Assembly: GCA_003194525.1 (NCBI GenBank)
Contig: NBIV01000148.1
Span: 141,185 to 205,184 of the forward strand
Reading direction: 5' to 3'
Length of the DNA: 64,000 bases
From: Gracilariopsis chorda
Lineage: Eukaryota > Rhodophyta > Florideophyceae > Gracilariales > Gracilariaceae
In this document: one piece after another, positions 5,350 to 64,000 of the stretch
How the letters are laid out: each line of letters opens with the position of its first letter
Position numbering within the stretch: the first letter of the stretch is position 1
The notes under the pieces: generated by a model
What the model was told of the DNA's origin: nothing
The model's database searches: none
The model's input: only the letters and a program-made list of their open reading frames with translations
Translations under genes and position numbers: made by a program

Positions 5350-7548
5350 TTAGTCGAGGTTCGCATATGCTTCGGGCCTTGCAAAGTATCTCTCCAGTGT
5401 AGACGGCTGTGATGCAGAACAGAGCTGGTTTGGACCTCTCAGCAGAAATGTGCGCTCTCCTTCCAAGTGAATGGCCAGTCGCTCTACTTTTGGTACGATG
5501 TGAACATGTCGAAACTCGAAAAGTCTCCAAGCTGCATTGACGGCGCCCACCACACGCGCTCGCATGTACGCACGAATGTCGTTCTGCACCTGTGGCTCTT
5601 GTTGCTGCTCGTTCTGTGTGCCTGTCTCATTAGCAGCACTCACATTGAGCACCACCTCTTGAGCTTTGGGCTGCTTGAACGCGTAATTCATCAAATAAGC
5701 CACTGTGCCCCCTCTTTGTGTGCGTTCTACGTTGATATGAGAGCGGTACGCCTTGGTCAGAGTTGGGTTGTACGGCACAATCTTGAGGTATTCTTGCCTT
5801 CTTATGCTGTAAATCACGCGATTCGTGCCTTCTTCAATGTACGTCTCCGGCACAGTCATATTTCTGTCGTATGTAAACTTGCACCGCCCGGCGCGATTCC
5901 GGCAATAGGTGGAGTGGCGGTGCCTGTGCATGGAACGAATGAGGGCACGCAACGCGTCGTCTTTGCCTGGAAGGGGAAGTTCTGCACGAATGAGCTTGTC
6001 GATCACATCAACGTCTTCAATCACGCCTCCTTCGAGCCACACGAGCATGTGGTGATTAAGCACATTGCGCTCTTGAAACTCGAGCTTTGACGCAAGCCCC
6101 AGGGACTTCAATCCAAGGATCTGCTCCGAGTTCTTCTCCAAGTCCTTCTTGAAGTCGTTTGCATACTGGTTGTACACCCTTGCAATCAGATCCGGTCGGT
6201 CAAACGGTCGAGGGCGGTTACTCTGTGCCGTAAATGCGCTCCGATTGCTGGTATCCATACCAAGGCGCTGGATGTCCTCTCGCTAGATTTTCATGGTGAT
6301 TGTAATGAACAGAGAAGGCAGTCCTCTCCGCACCACGATCTCCTGTACATCCATGCGCTTTTTCTTCCAGTATGCTGCTGAGTTGACCAAGTCATCGGGC
6401 AGAAAGATGCGTCCCATTTGCGCGAACTGGGATTGTGGCACGTGACCGGTTTGCTGTTGTGCTTGCTGAATTTCTTGCTCTTGTACAATGCATGCCCGTT
6501 GTTCTCTTTCCAGGAAACGCAGTCGCATGTCCTCAATGTTTGTGTGGGTGCGAAGCATCCACAACTGCATCAACGGTCCACTGTTCAGAAGGATGTTGTC
6601 TGAGTACAGTCGTCTCTTCGCGTTCTCAGCCCAGGTGATCTTTTGGAGCTTCCACTCGTTGACGCTGAGACCTGAGATTTGCTGTTTTGATTTCTTTGCC
6701 TCCAGAAACACGCCGAATTCAAACGGTTCGTGCTGATCGCCGTACGGGTAGAGCAGAGGGAAAGTGCCTTTCTCTGCCATTTCGGATGCCGGTTTTAGAA
6801 GGCGGTACCACACTTGCACATTGTTTGCGGCATTCGCAGTCGCCCCATCTCCAGCATTAGCAGCAGCAGCAGCCGTCAATACGGCGTGCTCTTCTGTTAC
6901 GGTTCCTTCTACGAAGCGCAGTACTTGAGACTCCCCTCGGTACAGGCCAGTCTGATCCACGACGAGCGTTCTCATCATGGTTGGCCCCCCAACAGGAGCA
7001 TCTTCAGGGAGCGGCCCAGCACGTGCGTGAGGAGCACTGACTGTGGCACTTCGGGTTCCTTCGTACCCACTTACGACTACTCCCTCTTCTGCTGCCTGCA
7101 TGCTGATATCGACGGCAGTATCTGCATTTTGTTGTTGTTGTTGCGTGCTAAGCATGGATCGGTACCGCTCACGCACCACGTCTGGCTTGGGCTGGATCAC
7201 ATCGTACAACTTGGGCACGATGTCTCGTAGGTTGATGTCTTGAATGAACGCACGCAAATTGGCACGCGCATAGTGAGAGGGATCCAAAGAAGGCTGACCA
7301 GTACCCTACAGAAAGCTGTAGCGCGTGTTGTTCTGGTTCTGCGTGGGCAGAGCGAGAGCTGCGTTTCCCTCAAGTCTCAGAAAGGAGGGACCGCCCCCCG
7401 TCACATACGACATGTCCATGAACGCTTTTGTCGTAGCGAAGAGGGTATTCAAGTTGAGGAAATGGCTGTGAAAGGCTCTCAGACTATAAAGACTGCGAAC
7501 TAACTCACTGCAATGCCTTCTGCGGAACGTGACCCCCCACACTGACAT
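5350..7548 (-). pseudogene. Helitron Y Rep (Helitron-like N domain plus HUH region)
   Basis: The frames 7548-7306, 7287-6283 and 6258-5350 are contiguous and in phase except for two TAG codons (near 7307 and 6283), where Helitron Z has TGG. They read through a glutamine-rich N-terminus and PLLYPYGDQ, then GLPSLFITITMK (the LPDLFITxT block), ending with VPKVERLAIHLEG. The HUH histidine site reads L-N-H-H-M near 6049-6057: the first metal ligand His is Asn in this copy. A tyrosine pair is visible in VAYLMNYAFK. Rep would nick and join DNA ends, but this copy should be inactive. Confidence 0.88.
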
Positions 7549-10443: not shown

Positions 10444-11091
10444 TGCTTCGGCAACATCAGGCGCCGTATCCGTTTCTTTGCAGGCCAGAAAGCGAACCCT
10501 TCTTGACAAGCGATCAACCCAGGTGGGGATGGCATCAAATCCACGGTTCGTGTTCTGTAGTTTCACAATGAAATCAGTTGCAACCACACCCGAGCGACGA
10601 GCTGGAACTGGGAGAGCCGTAGGGTCGTTCAAGGTTGGGCCGTGGAAGTCCTTCTGTTGCTGACAGACGCGAAAGCCTTCACAATACCGCTTTAAATCTC
10701 TGGCTTTGTGCTTCCAATGGAATTCACACAGACGAGCAAGAGTCTTTTAAAATGCAAAATGTTCTGTAATCTTAGAGTCATGGGCCAGCTCCAATACTTG
10801 GCGACGACAATGTGACGGAATGCAAAGTTTTCCATTATACAAACGACGCCAACCTTCTTTCTTAAAGGATGGAAACAGTACCTCGAGCCGTTTGCGATGC
10901 TTACGATCCTCTGGCCATATACCATTAAGTGCTTCCACAACAGATCCGAAGAATTGGTCTTTATCGTAACTGGACCAACGTCTTTCCAGTTCGGTGAGGG
11001 ATGGGGTCAAGCATTGAGTTTGCTGGAGCGAGTGACGATCGGAAATTCGAGACAAAGAATCCCCCAGCACATGTAACTTGCCTTTCACCAA
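10444..11091 (-). pseudogene. Gypsy B integrase, N-terminal HHCC region and first catalytic D
   Basis: Frames 11091-10747 and 10632-10408 give GKLCIPSHCRRQVLELAHD, C-x2-C-type residues near FRVCQQQKDF, then SGVVATDFIVKL (first catalytic Asp) and KETDTAPDVAEA. The frame runs into Helitron sequence after DVAEA at 10444. Excision of the Helitron would continue it into 3027. One stop lies near 10745. Confidence 0.8.
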
Positions 11092-11496
11092 GCTGACCTT
11101 GCGGATTTTAAAACTAGGTAGAACATCAAGCCAGCGGGCTTCACGTCAGTTCAAGGACTTCTTTGTTAGGAAGTTTTCCACGACCTGATTATCATTAAAA
11201 GCGTCAAAGGTTGATTCTTCGAGGTAGCACCGAAACTGCTGCAACGAAACCACTAGTGCTAAAAGCTCTAGTTCATTGGCGGTGTAGTTCTGTTCTGCTG
11301 AAGTAAGCTTTCGTGACGTATATGCAATACCAAGATCACACCCATTAAATTCAAATTGCATGAGGGTAGCGCCAACTGCCAGCTGCGAAGCATCAATGTG
11401 TAGGCGGGACGGCCTTTTCCAGTCCGGGGAAACGAGAATTGGGGCCGATATAAGTGCTTCTCTCAGCTCCAGGAATGTTCATTCACACTCAGAGTT
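11092..11496 (-). pseudogene. Gypsy B RNase H domain
   Basis: The translation gives RLHIDASQLAVGATL then YTSRKLTSAEQNYTANELELLALV and FNDNQVVENFL, with catalytic D, E and D positions of retroelement RNase H. A TGA near 11145 and a stop near 11480 interrupt it. It lies between RT and integrase as expected. Confidence 0.85.
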
Positions 11497-49771: not shown

Positions 49772-50995
49772 TTAGCTAAACACGGACTTAATTTGGTTGT
49801 GGCCGATGGTGCGCGTTCGATAATTCATCAAATAGCAACACACAGCAATGATCCTATACCGTTTGCAACTATCCGCCGGAAGCACGGTAGTCAGTCTTCG
49901 AAACGGCCCTTTGAGCGCATTTACTCCCCATTCCCCAGATTGTCTGTACGCAGGATACAGACTTTGAAGCACACAATCCACCGCTGCCATTTCCAAGGAC
50001 TTGTAAGCCTGTCCAGCTTCATTGAGCTTACGACACCGAAGTATTTTTGCGTTGGTCACGTTCGGGTGGGTGGTAAACGCACTATCACCGAGAATTGCGT
50101 AGCCTGGTGGGGTCTCTTCGTCCGACAACCTCGGCCAGTAAAGCCCTGAAATTCCGGCTAGCTTACTATCATGCCATGACCCAGGATAGTTCACTGCAGC
50201 ATGAACAATTTCACCAAAGAAGTTCCACACGAAAAGGTTAGTGACCTCGGTACTTTGCGTGTACCCTTCAAAGTATGCGTTTTGGAGATTTGCATCATCA
50301 TACTTTGCACACCGAAATCTTCCACCATCTGCAACCCCAAACACACCCTTCAGGTACAACGCAATATTCGGTTTCGCTTTTGCCAGCGCTTGCGAAGAAC
50401 GTTCCATTTCAGTCACTGACGGCCATATTATTGTAGCATTTGGAACAGCCTCCGAACTCAACAGGGCAGAGAGAACGCTCATTCCATATTCAAGCCAGTC
50501 GCTCACACTGGTTGGAACCAATCCAAACGTCGGGCAAAGTGTGAACATCCTATCGCTGGTTTTCAGATACCACAGTGCTAAACCAAGTACATCAACCGGT
50601 CGCATACAACCACGACGTCCTTTTCGTTTAGCCGCTTTGCTGTATGGAGATTTAGCAAGCATTCGTGCGCGCATATTTTCAAACTGGGGAAGGAGTTCGT
50701 TTAGAAAGTCAGATTTTCGTATATTGATGCTGACGATAAAGTCAACATCATGCCCGCATGATAACAGTTGGTACCAACCAGTGCTACATCTGGTGTGAAT
50801 AGCACGCTTGATTCCGTTTTTTGTGTACTTCAAGGGCTTCGATATCGTTCGACGTGAGGTTAGACAATATTCTGAGTCGAGCAGATTGATTGTGTATGAT
50901 ATGCACCACTGGCACAATAAGAAGGCGTTCAAGGATTGTACGGTTTCTGGACCCATTTGGAGTGAACATTTCGGATGCGGAACGAAGCGAAACAT
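49772..50995 (-). CDS. D2 DDE transposase (PIF/Harbinger DDE_Tnp_4 type)
   Basis: A 407-codon frame. GRRGCMRPVDVLGLALWYLKT is the helix-turn-helix-like start of the family. GVFGVADGGRF carries the first Asp; YPGSWHDSKLA and ILGDSAF hold the second Asp region; SGEWGVNALKGPFRRL carries the Glu. The C-terminal YRIIAVCCYLMNYRTR is usual for the family. The true N-terminus is unclear: an overlapping frame (51227-50784) also reads well in its last third (SARLRILSNLTSNDIEALE), so a one-base shift near 50900 is likely. Apart from that, the catalytic domain is intact. Confidence 0.85.
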   Translation of the reverse strand: MFRFVPHPKCSLQMGPETVQSLNAFLLCQWCISYTINLLDSEYCLTSRRTISKPLKYTKNGIKRAIHTRCSTGWYQLLSCGHDVDFIVSINIRKSDFLNELLPQFENMRARMLAKSPYSKAAKRKGRRGCMRPVDVLGLALWYLKTSDRMFTLCPTFGLVPTSVSDWLEYGMSVLSALLSSEAVPNATIIWPSVTEMERSSQALAKAKPNIALYLKGVFGVADGGRFRCAKYDDANLQNAYFEGYTQSTEVTNLFVWNFFGEIVHAAVNYPGSWHDSKLAGISGLYWPRLSDEETPPGYAILGDSAFTTHPNVTNAKILRCRKLNEAGQAYKSLEMAAVDCVLQSLYPAYRQSGEWGVNALKGPFRRLTTVLPADSCKRYRIIAVCCYLMNYRTRTIGHNQIKSVFS

Positions 50996-51276
50996 GTATT
51001 GTGCAACATGAGTGGCACAATTCGTTGGTTACGGTATTGTTGACGGTCATAAGTTGATGGAGAGATCGGTTGTGAGGAGTTAGGTTGCTGCTTGTATTCA
51101 TAAAATGGGAGTATCTGTTGTGCAACTTACGTAGAAATCGAGATTTGTCGTTTTGTACTGGGGTCGACTTACCCACTCCATACTGAGAAACTTTCAGCGA
51201 GTGCGGTTCCATTCTATAGGAGCTCATTGGCTATAACTTTGTCATTCTCTCAGAGTGGCTTTGCTTGGAAAGCCCC

Positions 51277-52639: not shown

Positions 52640-53661
52640 TCTTACCCAGCCCCTGATACCGCGCATACCTCCGAAGGGAATCTGGACTCAGACGACCCGC
52701 TTGCGGTTTCTTCTACATCGCCCCCAGCGATTCTACCGCATCCAGATCGTGGTTTATCAAAGCTACCGAAGGGAACGAATCTTCGTCTTCAGGACAAGCC
52801 CCCGGATACCCTGGTTCCCTCCGCTCGATTCAACCCGCCACCCACCCTACTCACTCAAAGGGCTTTGCGTAGGGAGGGGGTGGGTGTGGTGCAATGCCCC
52901 AAAGGGGAAAAACACCGAAAGACGTTCGCGATCTTCCTCTCACGAGGTGAACCCAGTTGAGTAGAGCTCTCCCAGAGATGTCACGGCGAAGCCGGTTTGT
53001 AAGACCAGGGACACCTGTCGCGACTTGCGCAGGTAGGTGAAGGCGAAGAATCGGTATCCGCATGAGCGGGGTGTGATCCTCAGTAGAGGTATTTTTCCAC
53101 GTAAGTGGGGATGCGTGAGCGGGTGCAAACAGGAGGGCTGCAGGTAGCGGGATGTACTACCCTGAAAGGGGGAAAGGGGGAAGAGTGAAGGGAAAGCAGG
53201 AAGAATGGGCGAGGGTGAGTCGCAACAGCGACGAACAAATACGGCAATGCCGGTGGACAAGACTCCCTATACAGGGCGAAACACGGATGTGATTGGAACA
53301 ATTATACTCCAAAGGATGGGTCTCTTTAGGTGTGTCGGGGGGTTAGAGGTCCCGTGGTTTACGGCGTTTCCCTCCAAGGAGGAGTTGAGAACGCGCGGAA
53401 GCGGCAACAACTAGAGCCAGTTCCCCAGGTTGGGGTCCCTTGTTGGGGAAGCTTTACTGGTGCGACAGCAGTGCACCGTAGTACTAAGTACTGACTTCCC
53501 AGAAATGGGTGTAAAAATAATAAATACAATTAACCAAAATTATTAGAAATACTCCAGATTTCGTGGCAGCATCCACTACTGTGGCCAACCGCCAATTGGC
53601 CCAAAACCGTGTCCCACGTGTCCATATCCACCATAGTGGGGCGTAGTTCATATACACACTA
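52640..53661 (-). repeat. Chromovirus LTR, third copy (- strand orientation)
   Basis: The - strand start TGTGTAGTGTGTATATG (53661 downward) resembles the LTR starts at 58311 (-) and 56522 (+). Inside, GTGGTGCAATGCCCCAAAGG and CCAGTTGAGTAGAGCTCTCC match 57399-57485. On the - strand, CGGTATCAGGGGCTGG at about 52657 resembles a primer-binding site of the initiator-tRNA type, so this may be a 5' or solo LTR. No polypurine tract lies at its upper side. Confidence 0.55.
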
Positions 53662-54739
53662 CACAACCGATAATATCGGGAAAACAATCAAGTACCAGAA
53701 ATCCCTCCCTGAGGCCGTTGCACTTCAGAGGGATGTCCAATCGCTGTCGATCAACTGGCGTCGCCAGGAAAATGTATTCCTGAGCACCAAATGGTTAATC
53801 GCACAGTGCGAGATGTGGACGTGGAACCCCGCAGGGAAAGTGGGAACCCCACTACAGAAATCCTTCAAGGGGAAGACATCGCGGTATCAGTGCCTGCCCA
53901 CGTGGTTTGCCCGCTGGAATCAGGATGCAAGGTGTTGCTCCTCGGACTGGTGGCGAACCGTGCCCGGTGACGGCCGACCCTGACTTGGTTTATCTAGATG
54001 AGGACGACGACCCCGATCAGGTGTAGACCACGCTTTGGTGCTTGAAATCCCTGATCGCTACGAAGATCGAAACTTTCGTGGAACTCTTGAGGAGGTAGAA
54101 CGTTGAGAGGTGCGCCACGGCTTGTGGGAAGTTGACGCGCAACGTGCGTCACACAGCGCACAGCCGGTATGCGCACTTGTACGTAACACGCCTATACCTT
54201 CGCGGAGCACTGAGATGCAGAAGTGACGGACACCGTACCCGTGTACACGAAAACCCGTAACACCCATCGGCAAGAGTTTACCTAAAATGGCACCGACAAT
54301 TCGTGAACATCCCGTGGAGACGGTTATCCAATCAGGATCAAGTTTGCAAGCACCGTAGCCGGTCGATCCGCTTCCATGCGCGGAGAATGCGGCACACGAG
54401 TATCTTCGTCAAACGATAATTCGGGCCCTGTGAGGCGCTAACCGAATCTTGGTGGCTACCGTTCGCTAGTTCATGACTCTTGGGAGCTCACGTGAAAAAA
54501 GTTTACTCTGCTTGGCGAGTTCTATCTGTGCACACTTTCATATTTGCGCTACGACGCGTAAAACGAAAGGTATCGGTCAGCTGACTCGACGGGCCCACGG
54601 AAAGTAAATTCCATGTTCCTGGTCTCCAAAAACCGAAATAAACTCGCTCAGGGTGGGAAAAGATCCCTTGGTACCCCTGAAGGTTTCGAATTTACGGGAA
54701 TTCGTCATCGGAGACGTAAAATCGGACACGTATTCCCGA
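53662..54739. other. Chromovirus-derived DNA, decayed
   Basis: The + strand frame 53609-53983 is not recognised. The stretch at 54000-54030 resembles 59911-59940 of the antisense gene (DDDPDQV against DDDPDEV). Nothing else is assignable. Confidence 0.4.
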
Positions 54740-54941
54740 GAATTCGTCATCGAACGCATCGTGCGTCGCGAATATGACCCCTAAGGGTTGGTTTATTGCC
54801 AAATCCGTTGGTATGGATACCTTCTGCAAGAGGACACGATAGAACCAATCGAAAACCTACCTACGTCTAAAGTCCTGCAATATCACCGAACAACTCGAAC
54901 ATCCATACCAGCAACGGTGGATACAGCCCAAGTAACGTAAA
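54740..54941 (+). pseudogene. Chromodomain at pol C-terminus, chromovirus copy 2
   Basis: The frame reads EFVIERIVRREYDP, a TAA, GLVYCQIRWYGYLLQEDTIEPIENLP, SKVLQYHRTTR and TAQVT-stop. It corresponds residue by residue to the chromodomain at 60537-60881 (EFVVDHIVDHVLDS, VWFYQIRWYGYPPEEDTWEP, AQVG-stop). The stop position is conserved. The + strand orientation is opposite to copy 1. Confidence 0.8.
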
Positions 54942-55257: not shown

Positions 55258-56441
55258 TTATCCCGACGAAGGGCCAGCACCAGAGTGATTGTTTGAATGA
55301 GGATAGTTTGCCGCGGTGAGAGCCAGGAGCTGTCCAACATCTACCATGTCCGCATGTACCGTGGTACCAAAGTTTTGGAGGTTCTCGCGCAACACGATGA
55401 TGTGAGGGTCTGTTAAAACCGTAGGTGGCTCAGTTGCTAGAGGTGGCGGCTCACTCATCTGAGTTACGAAGCCCCACCTCTTGGGAGCACCCGATTGGCT
55501 GGATGCCCCAGCGTTTCTCGGAAAAACCAAGTACATGCCCGGTCCATGGTAAAGGCCGACACTTCCGTTGGCCTCGTCATCCATCATCAGATCATCGAAG
55601 TCGACCGACAGGCCGTAGTCATCATGAAGTACGAATTCTGTCCGATGACCCGCTGGTATGGTTCGCGGAAGACTGCGTTGCTCAAATTCATGAGAAGGGG
55701 ATACCTTTGCACCTACATATGGGACGCGATGGTTACCTGCGTTGTGGTATCGAAGTGTGCCGTATCGAACTGGGCCAGGTTATCCCTGTAGGTTACTTCG
55801 ACATAGATGTGATACCTTGATAAGTCTAAGTCGCATTCACTGGGAATCAGGTATTGGATTGGAGTACGCATGAGCCGTTTATACGCGAATGGCCTCAATT
55901 CTTCTGGGGCCCTATCCAGGTTCTCTCCACGGCAGATATCTATCATTTAAAGGTTAGGATCCAACGCAAGGCGTCCTCGCCAATCGCGTGAAGTGACCAC
56001 GTGAAGTGGAAGCCCACAAGGGAGAACGCCGTCGTGTGCGTAGGACTGGATCAGTGGAAGGTTGAAAATCTCAGGCGGGTGAAACCAAGGAGTCTGGGTA
56101 TAGATCGAAGGATTATGTAACGGATCCAGTGCTCTCAGTGTTACCCTGTGGACCCACCCGAGTTGGTTTATAACGACCGAAGTACTCTGAGAGGATTGCC
56201 ATGCGCGGAAGTGTGCCGGAACGGTTATCGGAACGTTATTCTGAGGACATGGAGCCGTAGGAAACCGGCTCAGTACGGAGGATAAAGGAGCGATACTCCC
56301 AGACTGGGATGTATCCACTCCGGGATTGTGTTGGTTGAGATTATCTGAGTTCATTAACAGAGATGAAGAATCGGTTTCGATGTGGTTAGTTTTCGTTCGT
56401 CGCGTCATGTGTTGAACCGGAGGAAGTTCGGTATCACTCAT
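55258..56441 (-). pseudogene. Antisense gene of the chromovirus, copy 2
   Basis: Frames 56441-55947 and 55946-55713 are in phase, separated by one TAA. They align with residues 40-250 of the copy at 58486: PWFHP, LIQSYAHDGVLPCGL against LIDSYVEEGELPGGL, DWRGRLALDP against DWRTRIAVEP, DLDLSRYHIYVEVTYRDNLA against SFDLSRYRTYGEVSYCENLA. About 190 residues of the middle are deleted. The C-terminal frame, including EFVLHDDYGLSV and 55587-55258, matches the second frame of copy 1 (NFVFYDPWEVSV, LLALTAANY against LLAFASANY). It is transcribed toward the end of pol. Confidence 0.8.
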
Positions 56442-56511
56442 GATGAGTTGAATTTTTCATACCCTTTTCCGCCTGCGTGTCACTCGCTTTCGTTGCGATG
56501 TTATCTGGTCT

Positions 56512-56521
56512 AAGGAGGGGA
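56512..56521 (+). other. Polypurine tract of chromovirus copy 2
   Basis: AAGGAGGGGA directly before TGTGTAGAGCAATG. The same arrangement occurs on the - strand at 58322-58312 in copy 1. Confidence 0.75.
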
Positions 56522-57340
56522 TGTGTAGAGCAATGCGTTCGTGTATACCCTCTAGGCGAGGTCGATAATGAATGATTCAGTGCCGACGTGGCACCGGTTC
56601 AACTCCGGTATGAGTGGATTCTCGGATATATTGCGTGAAATTCGATATGAATTTTAATTGATATTTTTGAAACCTTCGTGGGCGATTTCTGTGGTATCTA
56701 GAATAGATGGACGCATGGCAAACGTACAGATACTATTCGTGGTTGGCATGATTCACACCTGTCGTGTTGGGCTGTGGCCAGCAGTACCGCCAAGTGACAC
56801 AGGTGTGTGGACCACAAGTGTGGCACACAAAAGTAGTAGTATTCTTGGTTTATTGTGATCCAATAGTACTTAAAGGAGGACGGCCCTGCCGTTTCACCCT
56901 AAACTAAAGTTAAGCTGTTGCTCGGCTCTGAGTTTATCGCCGGCGCGAAGTGACCAACTCCTGCTGGGATTTCACCACGTTCGGTCTCGTTATACTCACC
57001 CGCAAAGTTTCAGCAAGGACCGCTGATCTGTTTTACTACGTGGGTTCGACTAGTGTCTACTGTTTTTACCGTATTGGGTACTTTCTTTTGTAGGAACAGA
57101 TAGCCTTGTGACTCAGTATTGAGTTTTGCGGTGCTGGCTGAATAAGCAACACCCCAACTGCCGGGTCTATTACGGCTTTCCGCACGACCCACTGGGTTGT
57201 ACCTTTCCTCCGGTTTCTTCCCCTTTTTCCTTTCTGGATTCTCCGTGGACCAGAACACCGCTCCCACGAACCTGCACACTACGTTGACCAGCTCGTAACC
57301 CAAATCTCCGTAACACCTCCGTCGATATAGCCGGAAGTCA
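56522..57340 (+). repeat. 3' LTR of chromovirus copy 2 (right limit approximate)
   Basis: Starts TGTGTAGAGCAATGCG after the polypurine tract. It shares CGGCTCTGAGTTTATCGCC and GGTCGTGCGGAAAGC-type blocks with the reverse complement of 57360-58311. The end is uncertain because it abuts the opposite LTR. Confidence 0.65.
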
Positions 57341-58311
57341 CCTCAGTTCTACAATCGAACCCCGTGTGGGATGGAGGACACTTTCGGTGCGCCTACTGTG
57401 GTGCAATCCCGGTGTGGGAAAGGCACCCAAGGCAGCTCGAAGCCTTGCTCTCTTGGAGAGGTAGGCCCAGCTGGGTAGAGCCCTCCGTGTCCCGTATGAC
57501 GGGTGTAACTCCGTCGGGAGCCTGGATGTACCTCGGAGGTTTAGGGGTTAGAACGGGTCAGAACCACGGCTGGCCCGGAAGTAGCCTGCGAACAGTGGAA
57601 CAAAAGAGGGAAAGGGACCACCCGACGGGGGCGTGCGGAAAGCGGGAACAGACCCCGGAGGGGGGTGCCGATACACACACACGAACACGCACCGCGCGGC
57701 GGTTAGGGGATATGAGGGGAAGGGATGGTCTCACGGTCTCACGACACACGTCGGTAATATCAATACCCAAAACTGGGGCGGAGATAGGGCCTGTACGGGC
57801 GGTCACACGACAACAACGAATACCACGAGTGGTCACAACCCACTGAGTACGACGAGCACGGTCTCCTCGGTGGTGCAAGTCGGGTGAAACTATCGGGCAA
57901 GCGGTGTACCTCCGCGAGGAGTTAGACACTTTGCATGGCGAATAGAGTCAGAGCCGAACTCTTGTTACTTTTCTTGGTGAGCTCGCCGCCGTGCGGCCGA
58001 CGCTCAAGTACTAGCTCAGTGCAGTACAGTAGGTAGTGCACTAGCCTAAGTAAAATTAACCCCTAAACTATACTAAAATAAGTAGCCGTTTTGGGCCTCC
58101 TGGCCGGGGCTGTAGCCACGTGTCCACCTCCCTTGCCAGGCAAGTACCACAAAATATGAATGTTCCCATAACCACCCTGGGTAACCCGACCGCTAATTAG
58201 CCCGGTAAACGGGGGCTAAAATTCATGCATCCCGCTTCATCGCTCGCACCGAGTACACCTCAGATATGAGTTTCACCATCGCCCGTACGCGGGAATGTAT
58301 TGCACTACACA
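57341..58311 (-). repeat. 3' LTR of chromovirus copy 1 (lower limit approximate)
   Basis: On the - strand it starts TGTGTAGTGCAATAC at 58311, preceded by the purine-rich AGGAGGGGGA. It is inverted relative to 56522-57340 with moderate similarity. The two copies thus meet 3' LTR to 3' LTR. Confidence 0.65.
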
Positions 58312-58373
58312 TCCCCCTCCTTAAGGGCCGAAAACGAACGTGAGTATAGGCGTGAGGGGATGAGGCGCGAGGG

Positions 58374-58381
58374 TATAAATA
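58374..58381 (+). promoter_or_regulatory. TATA box of the antisense gene
   Basis: TATAAATA in GAGGGTATAAATAGTCC lies 105 bp before ATG 58486 and inside the polypurine-proximal boundary of the element. Copy 2 has GGGTATGAAAAATTC at the matching place (about 56466-56452 on the - strand). Confidence 0.6.
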
Positions 58382-58485
58382 GTCCCGACAAGGGAATCGC
58401 CGAGATACCGGTCCCCCGTACCAACACGGTTACAACTGATCAACCCTCAGTACCTTCTTCAACAGACTCTGCGCCCCTCTCTACT

Positions 58486-60200
58486 ATGACCAACACTCCG
58501 TTTTCGAACAACCCGCCTGCGGGCGCCCCGCAGGGGACTTCCGCGAGCGGACAACCTTCCTTCGCGACGCCGGGGTCGTGGGTTCGTCACCCATCCTCTG
58601 GGTTCCTCTCCTTGCCTCTGCCTGGAGGATCGTCTCATGTTCCAACCTTGGATGCCTCGGATGCCGCGAGTATCGCCGCCTGGAATTCCGCTCAAGCGAT
58701 ACCGATCACTGCGACCGCCGCCGGCTGGGTGTCACCATCGACACTTTGGGCCCGCAATCCCCGGGAAGACGCTCTCCTCTTTTCGCGTGCGCCCTGGTTC
58801 CACCCCACATGGGTTTCCGACTCGGACCTCATCGACTCCTATGTGGAGGAGGGCGAGCTCCCAGGGGGACTAGGCCGGGATATGGTCGACTCCTTCGACT
58901 GGAGGACGCGTATCGCGGTAGAGCCACAGTTCCTCGCACGGAAGCGCACCAGATATGGTTTCGAGACGCTGAATGAAGCCCGTGCCGGGATGGCCAAGGT
59001 CGCCTACGACCGTCTCGCCCGCGCGAGTTATCCGGATGAGCTGGTACCAACGGAATACAGCTTTGACCTCTCGCGGTACCGTACCTACGGTGAAGTCTCA
59101 TACTGCGAGAACCTTGCTGCCTACCAGCCATCTACACCGTTCCGGTCCACTCCAATAGAAGCCGGGATGCTCCTCTGGAGGCGCCCAATTCTGCGTGCAG
59201 AGTTCCGATATCTTCGTCGTCCGAATCATCGCGGATCCTTCTTCGACCGACTCCGGTTTGAGCGAAAGGCGCGCTCCCGCTTCGGGTTCCTGGTACCATA
59301 CCAAAATCTCGAGGTCGAGAGGCTCCGTCCATCCGCGATGCGCGGCCGGTATGCACCTCTTCCCCATTGGTGGAGCAGGTTCGAAGTCCCGAGGGGATGC
59401 TTTGCGGAGATGCCTCCGTGCCTCAGCTACATCGGTTCACGATTAATCAACAATCCGGATTCCGGTTACTGGACTCTCTTCCTCGCCGAATGGGCTGCTC
59501 GCGTTGCCGCATTTCTCCTCTGGGAGGTGTACGACAAGAACCGTCTGTGGTACATTCCTCCTCACCTACGCCAGGTTATCCGCCGATTGGATCTCTATAT
59601 CCCTCTGGGATCCGAAGCCAATGTGGATGAGCTTCAGTGCCTTCTGAACACCATCATATGGTTAACTGGGATACAGTCCCAGTCTCCAACGTCCCTGACG
59701 GTGAGCCTTCCAGGCATGATCGCTCTCCAGGCCGGAGAAATCCAAACGCTGGCAACTTCGTCTTCTATGACCCTTGGGAGGTATCCGTGACTTCACGGGC
59801 TCACGCGCTAGCGTTACGCGATGTACCACGCTCCGTTCCGCGAGGCCACCCGGTTGGGTTCATGTTTTCCGATGACTGGCACGGTTCCTACGAGGATGAT
59901 CCAATGGTGGATGACGACCCCGATGAGGTGGAGGAGGCCGTAGCCCCGGTAACGGCGATGGTCAACGATCTCGACGGATCCGGCCAGCATGTGGCTGCTC
60001 CAGATGGCTGGAATATGGCCGCCAGTGCGGCTGCTTCTCCGTCTACCGCATCTCCGGTCCCCGTGGACCCTCAGGCCGTTGCCCTCAGGGCTCACCTCCA
60101 GTCCATTGGAGTGGTTGCGCCTTCCAACCTCACCAGCGTGAGCGAGTTATTGGCTTTCGCGTCTGCGAACTACCAACCGCCAACGAGCGGCTCATCCTAA
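58486..60200 (+). CDS. Antisense gene of the chromovirus, copy 1 (novel protein)
   Basis: The frame is open from 58300, but I start at ATG 58486 because a TATA box lies at 58374-58381 and the upstream part overlaps the LTR end. The first frame ends at 59790; the C-terminal part is in the -1 frame (to 60200), and copy 2 confirms that it belongs to the protein. A 53-nt intron, 59661-59713 (GTTAAC...CTGAC...CCAG), would join the frames; programmed frameshifting is the alternative. Features: a Ser/Pro/Thr-rich N-terminus, a conserved core with PWFHP, DSFDWRTR and DLSRYRTYGEVSY, an Arg-rich middle, and an acidic DDDPDEVEE followed by a helical tail. No zinc knuckle, no known domain. It faces pol, with 336 bp between the stops. 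Confidence 0.75.
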
Positions 60201-60536
60201 GTCAGGATCCTGGACCGTGGCACGCACACCTGATATAGGTTAGCGCTTAACGCTCCATAGCTTGTGGTAAACGACTTCCTTCTTCTATATCCGTATGTCC
60301 GGACTCTTCTTTTTCTTCTTCATAGCATCTTCATGCTGGACCGCTAGGCGGTATTCTTCATTAAACCGTTACTTCGGTCGGACCGCTAGGCGGTGTGACG
60401 TCCAATGACCATTGGTTTCCCTATCCAGTCCATTACTTCGTGTAACCTTCTGTAGCCAGATCTCTTCCTGTGTCCTCTTCTCTTCGGAGACTTCTCTTCC
60501 GTCTTCGGAATCTTCTGCATAGTGCAGTGTATCGTC
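60201..60536. other. Convergent spacer between antisense gene and pol, copy 1
   Basis: It contains two copies of the palindromic GGACCGCTAGGCGGT at 60339-60353 and 60389-60403, with a CCGTTACTTCGGTC segment between. No gene. The palindromes could end transcripts from both sides; that is inferred. Confidence 0.55.
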
Positions 60537-60881
60537 CTACCCAACCTGGGCCATGTCCAAAGTGGATGGGAGTGGGAACCGCGTCCGGCGGTGGTAGGTT
60601 ATCACCTTGGAACGAGGAAGGTGCTGAATGGGCTCCCATGTGTCCTCTTCCGGGGGGTATCCGTACCATCGGATTTGGTAAAACCACACTCCTTTGGAGT
60701 CCAGAACATGATCCACGATGTGGTCAACGACAAACTCCTGGTCGTACGTAGCCGGCTCCTGACCCGTCATGGCAGGGCTTAAGGGGAGAACCCTGTGAGG
60801 GGACTTGCCTGAAATTGGCGCGACCCTGCGGGCAAAGTCAGCTTTCCTCGACGCTGCGAGTGCTGGGACTTGATACCGCAT
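60537..60881 (-). CDS. Chromodomain at the pol C-terminus, chromovirus copy 1
   Basis: EFVVDHIVDHVLDSKGVWFYQ, IRWYGYPPEEDTWEPIQHL and SKVITYHRRTRFPLP form a canonical chromodomain with aromatic residues in the cage positions and the WEP block. It would direct integration to marked chromatin. It is separated from the integrase frame by about 440 bp in which the reading frame shifts. Confidence 0.88.
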   Translation of the reverse strand: MRYQVPALAASRKADFARRVAPISGKSPHRVLPLSPAMTGQEPATYDQEFVVDHIVDHVLDSKGVWFYQIRWYGYPPEEDTWEPIQHLPRSKVITYHRRTRFPLPSTLDMAQVG

Positions 60882-61321
60882 TGCGGTCTTTCCGCTTCCT
60901 AATCCTCTCCTTGTGGGGGGGGGCCTTCCGTTCTAACCGGATTCCCCTATTGACGCGCAGCTCGCGAGCTCTTCTCCCACGCGACCCGTGCAACTCTGGT
61001 GAGTTTGACCGTTCACGGTGAGGGAGGCGGTTCACTACGGTTCCGACGCCAGGAGGCGGATTGCCATGCATCACACACTGTGATTGGCTGGCCGCTGGCG
61101 GCAAGTGTCGCGCGCGGTCTTTCCACGACGCGGGTCTTGACTGTACTCCTGACGCCGGCCGGCGGTATGTACGTGTACACCTTTCCACGGTTTGGAATTT
61201 CGGGCTTCGTCCGCGTGACAGTGGCGTCACAGTGTCCATTTGTGGGGCTCTGCGGTAACGCACGCAGTGTCAACCACACTCTCCGTGTCCGCGGTTGCTT
61301 TTCAGCTCACCACGAAACTGG
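60882..61321 (-). pseudogene. Pol linker between integrase tail and chromodomain
   Basis: An Arg/Pro/Ser-rich frame (61263-60838) lies in the position of a disordered linker. Stops at 61322 and the overlap with 60881 imply one or two indels. Confidence 0.5.
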
Positions 61322-63589
61322 TTATGACCGAGGTTGTATGTGCTCCGTGCTCGGAGATATCATTCGCCACATTAGTGACCACACCGAGTCCGGTTCACTA
61401 CTTCCTCCTTCGCTACCCAGCGACTCGCTCGACAGGAGTGCATCCGGGTCCGCGGAGACGGCCTTCTCGCTTCGCGATGCGTTCAACTCCTCCCTGCTCC
61501 GGGGGTGCTCATCCGACGATGCCGTATGAAACGGGACACCGTCCGACGCCGGAGCTTCCTTCCGCGATGGCGCGATCGATTCCCGTCCCTCCCCCTCCTT
61601 AGGTGAGAGGGCGGTGGGTTCAGGATGAAGGACCTCCGCGGGCGGAGTAACGGTTAGGCGTTTGGGGTCAAGCGTGCGTTGCACGATACGCGCGGCGCGC
61701 CCAACCGGTTGATCGGCAATTGGAAGATCCGAGAGTCCCCGTTTCGGGTGCGGTAAGACGGGTGGGCGGGACGGAAGCAGATTATCCGTTGGCCGAGTTA
61801 CGAGGTCATCCTCCGGGATTGTCACGAGCGGTGATGAGCCCTCAGGGGGCGCAGGCGCGTGGGCTACGCGGTCGCGTGAGACGCGTTCGAACTGGTTATC
61901 GATGTCCAGTACGACTGTGTCGTCGGCGACGGAAACCACCCGATAGGGTCCATTCACTATCGGTGACAACTTGTGGCGCTTCTCCTTTTCGGGATTATAA
62001 TATTCCTTTCGCAGGAAGACAGAATCCCCTTCCGAGACCTGGGGTATCGGGGAACGAATCTTCGCGTCGAAGTTCTGTTTGTATGCCTTCTGGGCTTTTC
62101 CCATAGCCTTTCGGGCGGTAGGGACCATGTTCTTCAACCATTCCTTCCAGGAATCTCGATATAACCTTGGTGAAGGGTACCCCGAGACGTTCGGTTGCGC
62201 TTCAATAGCCATGGGTGGCGGAATCCGAGACAGGACCAGCTCAAATGGAGCGAGGGTCGTGACCCGGTGTACCTGGGTGTTATACGCGTACGTAATAGCG
62301 TCCGTGTACAAGTCCCATTCCATGGGGTGATCCGCGACATACGCGCGCAGTGCGTTGAGCATAGTACGATTGAATCGTTCCACTTGTCCGTTACACTGCG
62401 GGTGGTAGGTGGTAGTAAACATATTCTTGATTCCCAAGATTCTACATACGTCCTGAAAGAACTTTGAGGTAAATTGAGATCCGTTGTCGGAGAGTAGGTG
62501 TACCGGCGGGCCGTAAGTAAAGACCCAGTGGGTTACGAACGCACGCGCAACCACGTCCGCGGTAATCCGTTTAAGCGGTACTGTTCTCACCAACTTTGAG
62601 AAGCGGTCAGTAATGACGAGAAGATACTTGTAACCACGTTTGGTTTTGACAAGCTCGCCCAAGATATCAATAGCGACATATTCGAGTGGCGCCCGTGCCG
62701 GGAATAGTGTTAACTTCTTCGAGTACTTCCGAAGTTTCACATTATTCTTCGCACATTCCACGCACGAGCGGCGAACTGCATAGCAGTCAAATGCCATAGC
62801 AGGCCAATAGAAGTCCCTGCGAAGGGTCAGGTATAGTTTCCTCCCGCCGGGATGTGCACCCAACTTCGCGTAATGCGATAGATGCAAGACGCGCTGCTGC
62901 AGCGTGTGAGGTACAACGATCTGTGGGGCCCGTGTCAGCAACCTGACTAGGTAGCCTCGATCGTTCACCGCAAAGGGTATCTGTGCGCCCCCGTTAAGAC
63001 GGGCACGAATCTGGGCACAGAAAGGATCCTGCTGTTGTTCACGGATCATTTCCTCAGAGGATATGGGAACAACCTGGTCATCCGGAGGATCCGTAGGGTT
63101 TGCAGCTAGAATATCGTCACAGATGTCATCCCCATTCACGTCTGGGTCGTCTTCTTCCGTTCCCTCCGGGGATTGTGCCATGAAACATGGTATTTCCAGA
63201 TCGTCGACCGGTTCGGTTTCCGCTGATGTTCCTAAGCGCGATAGGGCGTCAGCCTGAGTATTCAGGGATCCCTTCTTGTAGAGGACATCAAATGTAAATT
63301 CCGAGAGTCGGAGACGCCAACGCATGAGGCGGCCCGACGGTTCTCGAATTTCGAGTAGCCAACGGAGAGCCGAGTGATCGGTGTGAACCTTGAAATGGTT
63401 ACCCATAAGGTATGGGCGAAGCGTTGCCAACGCCCAAACAACAGCAAGACACTCCTTCTCGGACACCGAGTAGTTGCGCTCGTGAACGTTCAACGAACGT
63501 GACCAATATCCGATCGGATGTCTTTCTCCTTCTTCCGTGACTTGAAACAACGCACAACCCACCTGGTGGGCACTTGAGTCAGTATCCAC
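61322..63589 (-). CDS. Chromovirus copy 1 pol: RNase H, integrase, GPY/F region
   Basis: An intact 755-codon frame. RNase H: VDTDSSAHQVGCALFQV at the start, then YSVSEKECLAVVWAL and HTDHSALRWLL. Integrase zinc region with HYAKLGAHPGGRKLY and CVECAKNN. Catalytic core: VAIDILGEL, LLSDNGSQFTSKFF, HPQCNGQVERFN, giving the D,D,E triad. GPY/F block: VNGPYRVVSV. It ends in a Pro/Ser-rich tail. It is joined to the RT part upstream by a one-base shift in the overlap 63490-63589. Confidence 0.93.
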   Translation of the reverse strand: MDTDSSAHQVGCALFQVTEEGERHPIGYWSRSLNVHERNYSVSEKECLAVVWALATLRPYLMGNHFKVHTDHSALRWLLEIREPSGRLMRWRLRLSEFTFDVLYKKGSLNTQADALSRLGTSAETEPVDDLEIPCFMAQSPEGTEEDDPDVNGDDICDDILAANPTDPPDDQVVPISSEEMIREQQQDPFCAQIRARLNGGAQIPFAVNDRGYLVRLLTRAPQIVVPHTLQQRVLHLSHYAKLGAHPGGRKLYLTLRRDFYWPAMAFDCYAVRRSCVECAKNNVKLRKYSKKLTLFPARAPLEYVAIDILGELVKTKRGYKYLLVITDRFSKLVRTVPLKRITADVVARAFVTHWVFTYGPPVHLLSDNGSQFTSKFFQDVCRILGIKNMFTTTYHPQCNGQVERFNRTMLNALRAYVADHPMEWDLYTDAITYAYNTQVHRVTTLAPFELVLSRIPPPMAIEAQPNVSGYPSPRLYRDSWKEWLKNMVPTARKAMGKAQKAYKQNFDAKIRSPIPQVSEGDSVFLRKEYYNPEKEKRHKLSPIVNGPYRVVSVADDTVVLDIDNQFERVSRDRVAHAPAPPEGSSPLVTIPEDDLVTRPTDNLLPSRPPVLPHPKRGLSDLPIADQPVGRAARIVQRTLDPKRLTVTPPAEVLHPEPTALSPKEGEGRESIAPSRKEAPASDGVPFHTASSDEHPRSREELNASRSEKAVSADPDALLSSESLGSEGGSSEPDSVWSLMWRMISPSTEHIQPRS

Positions 63590-64000
63590 TTCGAAGGTAA
63601 GTCCGGGTGCGGTAAGGCCAGAACTGGCGGGGACGTTACAGCGTCGACAAGAGACGAGAATGCTGACGACTCAGCCTCGTCAAAGACGTCCAGTTCGGTG
63701 GGTTGTCCTTTCCGGAGGAGTGCGTTAAGCGGTGCTGACAAGTCGGCGAAGTTCGGGACGAATCGGCGATATACATTGCAAAGTCCTAAGAAGGATCGAA
63801 GCTCCGTTTGATTAGTCGGATGTTTCGCCTCTCGAAGTGATTTCACTCTTGCTTCATCGATTGAAAGCTGTCCGGGGCGGATGATGTGCCCCAGATATTT
63901 TACCGAATCGGCGCAGAACTCACATTTTCCCAGCTTCAGGGTGATGCCTGCGTTGCGGAGCACTGTCAAGACTTCCCGGACATGGGACAGGTTATCGTCC
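63490..64000 (-). CDS. Chromovirus copy 1 pol: RT thumb/connection (partial, continues beyond window)
   Basis: LKLGKCEFCADSVKYLGHII and TELRSFLGLCNVYRRFVPNFADLSAPLNALL are the classical Ty3/gypsy RT thumb and connection blocks. The RT palm must lie beyond 64000. The frame leaves the correct phase just before VDTDSS of RNase H. Confidence 0.9.
   Translation of the reverse strand, partial: DDNLSHVREVLTVLRNAGITLKLGKCEFCADSVKYLGHIIRPGQLSIDEARVKSLREAKHPTNQTELRSFLGLCNVYRRFVPNFADLSAPLNALLRKGQPTELDVFDEAESSAFSSLVDAVTSPPVLALPHPDLPSKWILTQVPTRWVVRCFKSRKKEKDIRSDIGHVR

Follow-up and report, generated by a model that had tools for sequence, protein, structure and literature searches.

The window analysed here, a 64,000-nucleotide stretch of Gracilariopsis chorda DNA (contig NBIV01000148.1, positions 141,185 to 205,184), is the end of its contig (C148) in the 91.3 Mb genome that was searched. 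It holds a copy of a Ty3/gypsy retrotransposon (copy 1) with its pol pieces on the minus strand, and fragments of a second (copy 2; Table 1). An earlier note on this DNA had described a long open reading frame (ORF) opposite to pol, between pol and the polypurine tract, as a conserved antisense gene. For copy 1 this description holds: the ORF, here called ANT, encodes 571 residues at 58486-60200 on the plus strand, starts 175 nt inward of the 3' long terminal repeat (LTR) and converges on the chromodomain. With pol on one side and the 3' LTR and its adjoining polypurine stretch on the other, ANT is internal to the element. It is a genuine antisense gene.

The ANT frame is kept across genomic copies, a check that the note had asked for; the note's spliced gene model proved unnecessary. 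The window copy is broken by a single one-base frameshift near 59655, and in a genome search with the family-A ANT, the family of copy 1, 59 of the 76 best scored matches (from 1685 candidates at first look, counted from the table) span residues 1-571, 50 of them without a stop. One of these 50, on C79, switches frame over an internal stretch. When 27 family-A copies were compared with a reference copy, stops were found in five, a one-base deletion in two, and both in one. The genome contains at least ten ANT families (A to J), nine of which have intact copies that are 32-61% identical over 36 pairs; family F was represented by broken copies only among the sequences fetched. Across 13 ANT ORFs from the nine families, the other five frames contain 4-34 stops each. 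Chance is excluded as the origin of the ANT frame, because nine families are intact while the other frames are full of stops. The suggestion that coding constraint on the pol strand explains the alignment is likewise ruled out, the three pol-strand frames of the 13 ORFs carrying 8-30 stops each.

Comparison between families shows purifying selection on the ANT protein. Divergence is greatest at the third codon position and least at the second in all 36 pairs of the nine families. Pairwise maximum-likelihood estimates of omega, the ratio of nonsynonymous to synonymous rates, were 0.152 for H-I, 0.124 for G-H and 0.098 for D-E, the pairs with estimable synonymous divergence (dS). In the other six of the nine pairs tested dS was saturated, and in all nine a model with omega = 1 fitted far worse (twice the log-likelihood difference, 120-310).

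ANT also keeps its place relative to pol. All 20 of the loci retrieved by ANT matches (6.3-6.8 kb each) have integrase and chromodomain on the other strand, and the chromodomain was likewise opposite in 13 of 13 loci of an earlier, partly overlapping set. Because the fetched loci had been chosen by ANT, a sample of chromodomain matches was drawn (rank 1 and every tenth rank from 10 to 70 of 150 scored; n = 8): ANT was present within 1.5 kb in three, had been lost in one, and was missing from four that by eye resemble another kind of element. That other type occupies ranks 1, 10, 20 and 30 (L073-L076, on C17, C20, C195 and C130, with no ANT within 1.5 kb); in L074 integrase-like sequence apparently lies downstream of the chromodomain. 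Four further chromodomain matches, picked by hand, had ANT on C2 and C57 and had lost it on C156 and C22.

Integrase and ANT trees built from 14 loci have the groups (B,C), (D,J), (G,H,I), the F pair and the C trio in common. Their Robinson-Foulds distance is 6, and the ANT tree is compatible with the integrase data (approximately unbiased (AU) test, p = 0.169). This near agreement makes joint descent the main pattern. A host gene caught once and duplicated with its flank was considered and rejected: at least ten families carry ANT at the same place, in trees that nearly agree with integrase.

Protein searches with ANT gave 6, 7 and 24 partly overlapping matches, and those with a named organism came from Gracilariopsis chorda and Agarophyton chilense. 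In a 39-sequence tree, Agarophyton proteins stand beside family F (support 94) and beside G-H-I (support 99). On this branching, at least two ANT lineages seem to predate the Gracilariopsis/Agarophyton split, unless they were transferred between hosts. Two Gracilariopsis chorda entries catalogued as hypothetical proteins, BWQ96_10156 (P0004; 97-99% identical to genome copies over its main part) and BWQ96_03215 (P0027), are ANT relatives, and are therefore probably retrotransposon proteins.

Copy 1 is cut by the contig end at 64000, its remainder lying outside the window; one family-A element elsewhere in the genome spans about 11.4 kb. The 5' part of that copy (L071) has an ORF of 689 residues, taken as gag, in which a single CCHC knuckle occurs (0 Pfam matches), and a pol ORF that contains a DTG protease motif and a reverse transcriptase (PF00078). 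Read together, L071 and the window give the order reverse transcriptase, RNase H, integrase and chromodomain expected of a Ty3/gypsy chromovirus. Five copies at other genome sites have LTRs, 5-bp target-site duplications and a polypurine tract as expected of Ty3/gypsy elements: their LTR pairs align over 914-915 bp at 99.45-100%, and the duplications, read by eye, were present in all five. In the window copy chromodomain and integrase occupy separate ORFs, and stops interrupt every frame of the interval (60537-61322), possibly reflecting an intron or a frameshift. Some chromodomain matches near family-J ANT sit in open frames reaching 1885 aa.

Table 1. Features of the two element copies in the window
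Feature	Position	Strand	Remarks
Copy 2 chromodomain remnant	54674..54934	+	tblastn 48% to copy-1 chromodomain ORF
Copy 2 ANT remnant, C-terminal block	55303..55752	-	31% to P0001 residues 418-563, E 4e-13
Copy 2 ANT remnant, N-terminal block	55692..56216	-	36% to P0001 residues 61-236, E 3e-25
3' LTR of copy 1	57397..58310 (inner border +/-1 base)	-	about 914 bp; pol sense TGTAGTGCAA...TTGCACCACA
Polypurine tract AAGGAGGGGGAT (pol sense)	58311..58327	-	directly before 3' LTR; sequence reading
TATA-box-like site TATAAATAG	58374..58382	+	112 nt before ANT start, in ANT direction; in 7 of 8 family-A loci
ANT residues 1-390 (first part)	58486..59655	+	tblastn 99.7% to same residues of intact copy P0001
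ANT residues 392-571 and stop (other frame)	59658..60200	+	tblastn 100% to P0001 residues 392-571
Chromodomain ORF, 131 residues	60537..60932	-	Chromo domain about 60600-60734; PF00385, E 5.9e-11, residues 67-111
pol ORF piece	61322..63670	-	RNase H, integrase zinc-binding and core (PF17917, PF17921, PF00665)

In the ANT protein a variable N-terminus is followed by the conserved core and an acidic tail, and there is a short C-terminal block that is also conserved. The core measures 344-350 residues in all nine intact families (A-E and G-J), contains 35-44 arginines against 0-6 lysines, and is predicted to be mostly helical. Upstream of the gene, family A has a TATA-like site about 112 nt ahead of the start, B at about 343, H at about 350 and I at about 134 nt (four of six families), whereas the 450 nt upstream of G and of J contain none; in H, I and J the predicted start codon was set by a shared N-terminal motif. 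Shuffling gives an expectation of 0.15-0.22 TATAWA sites per 450 nt in three family-A loci. Going by these sites, ANT probably forms a transcription unit of its own, with a promoter close to the inner border of the 3' LTR.

Some elements have lost ANT and have nonetheless multiplied. At locus L078 nearly the entire ANT coding region is deleted, and a short repeat marks the junction. All 40 scored matches to a 301-base junction query (the best 40 of 1800 candidates) span the deletion junction at 96-100%, and the exact junction pattern has 87 genome matches, compared with 236 for an exact tag within family-J ANT (controls, 0 each); a tag on the ANT start side gave 10 matches only, probably since this stretch is variable. 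In each of seven deleted copies inspected the element stops at one common LTR terminus (14-18 of 18 bases), and all seven flanks differ. Because the common terminus runs on into different DNA, these copies are separate insertions, and the ANT-deleted derivative has itself transposed. Some of their chromodomain matches still sit in long open frames (1385 aa on C44 and 1102 aa on C156). ANT is therefore not needed in cis. A second, distinct ANT loss was seen at L081 (C22:37087-38087), where about 31 N-terminal codons are kept and the adjacent LTR match has the reverse orientation.

Taken as a whole, ANT is probably an accessory protein gene of a red-algal clade of Ty3/gypsy chromoviruses. That it is a gene, inherited together with pol, is nearly certain; that its product acts in trans seems somewhat more probable than otherwise, judging from the spread of the deleted copies; any particular molecular role can be put forward only tentatively. 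Copies lacking ANT would draw on protein from intact copies, or manage without it. The protein could serve as a nuclear or particle-associated cofactor for replication or integration, or as a factor against host silencing, an envelope function being less favoured. A bolder version is possible, though we doubt it: ANT would be an ancient trans-acting protein of an undescribed family and perhaps fold, needed by an amplified satellite lineage of ANT-deleted copies, and its role could be anti-silencing or a new step in replication.

Several results weigh against the accessory-gene interpretation. Within family A, the 250 private substitutions divide into 74 synonymous, 169 nonsynonymous and 7 stops (null expectation 73.6, 166.2 and 10.1), a nonsynonymous-to-synonymous ratio 1.01 times that of the null, i.e., neutral. 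The 30 shared changes (10 synonymous, 20 nonsynonymous, no stops; null 8.8, 20.3 and 0.8) give 0.87 of the null ratio, which is not clearly different, and among the 12 changes common to at least four copies, 11 are nonsynonymous and one synonymous. The comparison among genomic copies of one family that the note had called for thus shows no selection in family A, and since these substitutions fit neutrality, selection is visible only between families. We take this to mean neutral decay of copies once inserted, with too few shared changes to reveal constraint; an omega of about 0.4-1.7 for closely related pairs in families C, H and J fits the same view. The integrase tree is weakly rejected by the ANT data (AU p = 0.039), the small conflict being located around E and within C and G-H-I. 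The structural model is modest (mean pLDDT 63.3, pTM 0.59), the five models differing from 43.1 to 63.3 in mean pLDDT, and searches of Pfam, PHROGs, NCBIfam and the PDB gave no relative and no domain, fold or motif pointing to function. The deleted copies might simply do without ANT. The note had taken copy 1 and copy 2 as two copies of the same element. Copy 2 does exist, in the opposite orientation, but it is a decayed chromodomain-ANT fragment from another family: its ANT pieces are 29-41% identical to the ANT families, residues of about 236-418 are absent, and five family queries found no integrase beside it on the plus strand at E <= 1e-3.

Alternative explanations of the conserved frame can be set against the same data. 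VANC proteins of plant transposons have an anti-silencing role, and ANT might by analogy of role free its copies from host silencing. Action in trans would let ANT-deleted copies persist, and convergent transcription would be expected to favour double-stranded RNA, but domain searches recognised no DNA-binding family in ANT, and we consider this specific role unlikely. The env gene of retroviruses sits between pol and the 3' LTR, as ANT does, and a structural protein of the particle could likewise be shared in trans. A structural or envelope-like identity is nevertheless distinctly improbable: a gag-like ORF bearing a CCHC knuckle is present in the element already, and ANT lies opposite to pol in 20 of 20 loci, not in the sense orientation of an envelope gene. 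By hydropathy maxima (19-residue window) the families differ: values of 0.88-1.30 in seven of nine give no clear membrane span, and those for I (1.85) and H (1.99) are high.

Antisense RNA rather than protein could be the functional product, pairing with genomic RNA and restraining the element. By position an ANT transcript would complement the 3' part of the genomic RNA, and antisense regulation is discussed for plant elements in PMC7264820. We give this explanation little credence, as an RNA function needs neither protein-level constraint between families nor an uninterrupted frame in nine of them. Nor is release from such a brake seen, because deleted family-J copies are not commoner than ANT-bearing ones (87 against 236 exact tags, which are only roughly comparable). 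That the frame is kept without function, as a host gene acquired a single time and passed on with the element since, is scarcely credible, for although the neutral pattern among recent family-A copies and the spread of deleted copies would suit it, nine families are intact despite saturated synonymous sites in most pairs and the ANT and integrase trees nearly agree.

Other mobile-element traces were observed elsewhere in the window. At 52885-53727 there is LTR-like sequence, possibly a solo LTR, with 82-87% identity over long matches to LTRs beside family-J elements, and remnants at 10444-11412 and 1788-2198 on the minus strand show 24-34% similarity to the RNase H/integrase region of ANT elements. 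A Helitron helicase-like domain (PF14214) is spread over two adjoining minus-strand ORFs at 5350-7305, one of them below the curated cut-off. A 418-aa ORF at 49772-51028 (minus) resembles a DDE_Tnp_4 transposase, and an ORF at 43313-44230 (plus) carries DUF6818 (PF20681).

ANT elements share with chromoviruses in general the order of reverse transcriptase, RNase H, integrase and chromodomain, and an LTR with 5-bp duplications. They differ by an additional convergent gene of about 530-630 codons and, in family A, by a chromodomain in its own ORF. The HBZ gene of human T-cell leukaemia virus type 1 is a protein-coding retroviral antisense gene near the 3' end. ANT agrees with it in all three respects but is larger, with its core of 344-350 residues, mostly helical in the model; since no Pfam family matched, no bZIP was found in ANT, unlike HBZ. 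HBZ is also mentioned in PMC11963269.

The arrangement itself is not new, because plant gypsy elements and fungal Boty are known to carry antisense ORFs where ANT lies, between pol and 3' LTR. PMC7264820 and PMC11963269 describe such ORFs for Retand, Grande (gene23) and RIRE2, that of Grande with a reported promoter of its own; PMC7264820 adds Boty of Botrytis cinerea and PvRetro13 of common bean, whose likeness to ANT extends to described position and orientation. Our searches of an open-access library gave no description of the ANT gene, and neither the ANT protein family, nor its chromovirus and red-algal setting, nor the amplified deletion derivative turned up in them. Copies that carry ANT, beside copies that have naturally lost it, offer a direct handle on the role of such genes, and two catalogued Gracilariopsis chorda hypothetical proteins are indicated as transposon-derived. 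ANT resembles the antisense ORFs of Retand, Grande and RIRE2 in place, orientation and presence in most copies (here, family A among the matches listed). Retand elements, according to PMC11963269, are non-chromoviruses whose antisense ORF mostly encodes Transposase_28 (PF04195). ANT elements differ in carrying a chromodomain, in their red-algal host and in the absence of PF04195, which had 0 matches in the genome at E <= 1 and none among 15 ANT proteins. They form a separate case of gypsy antisense accessory genes, in red algae, in chromovirus-like elements, and with several intact families in a single genome.

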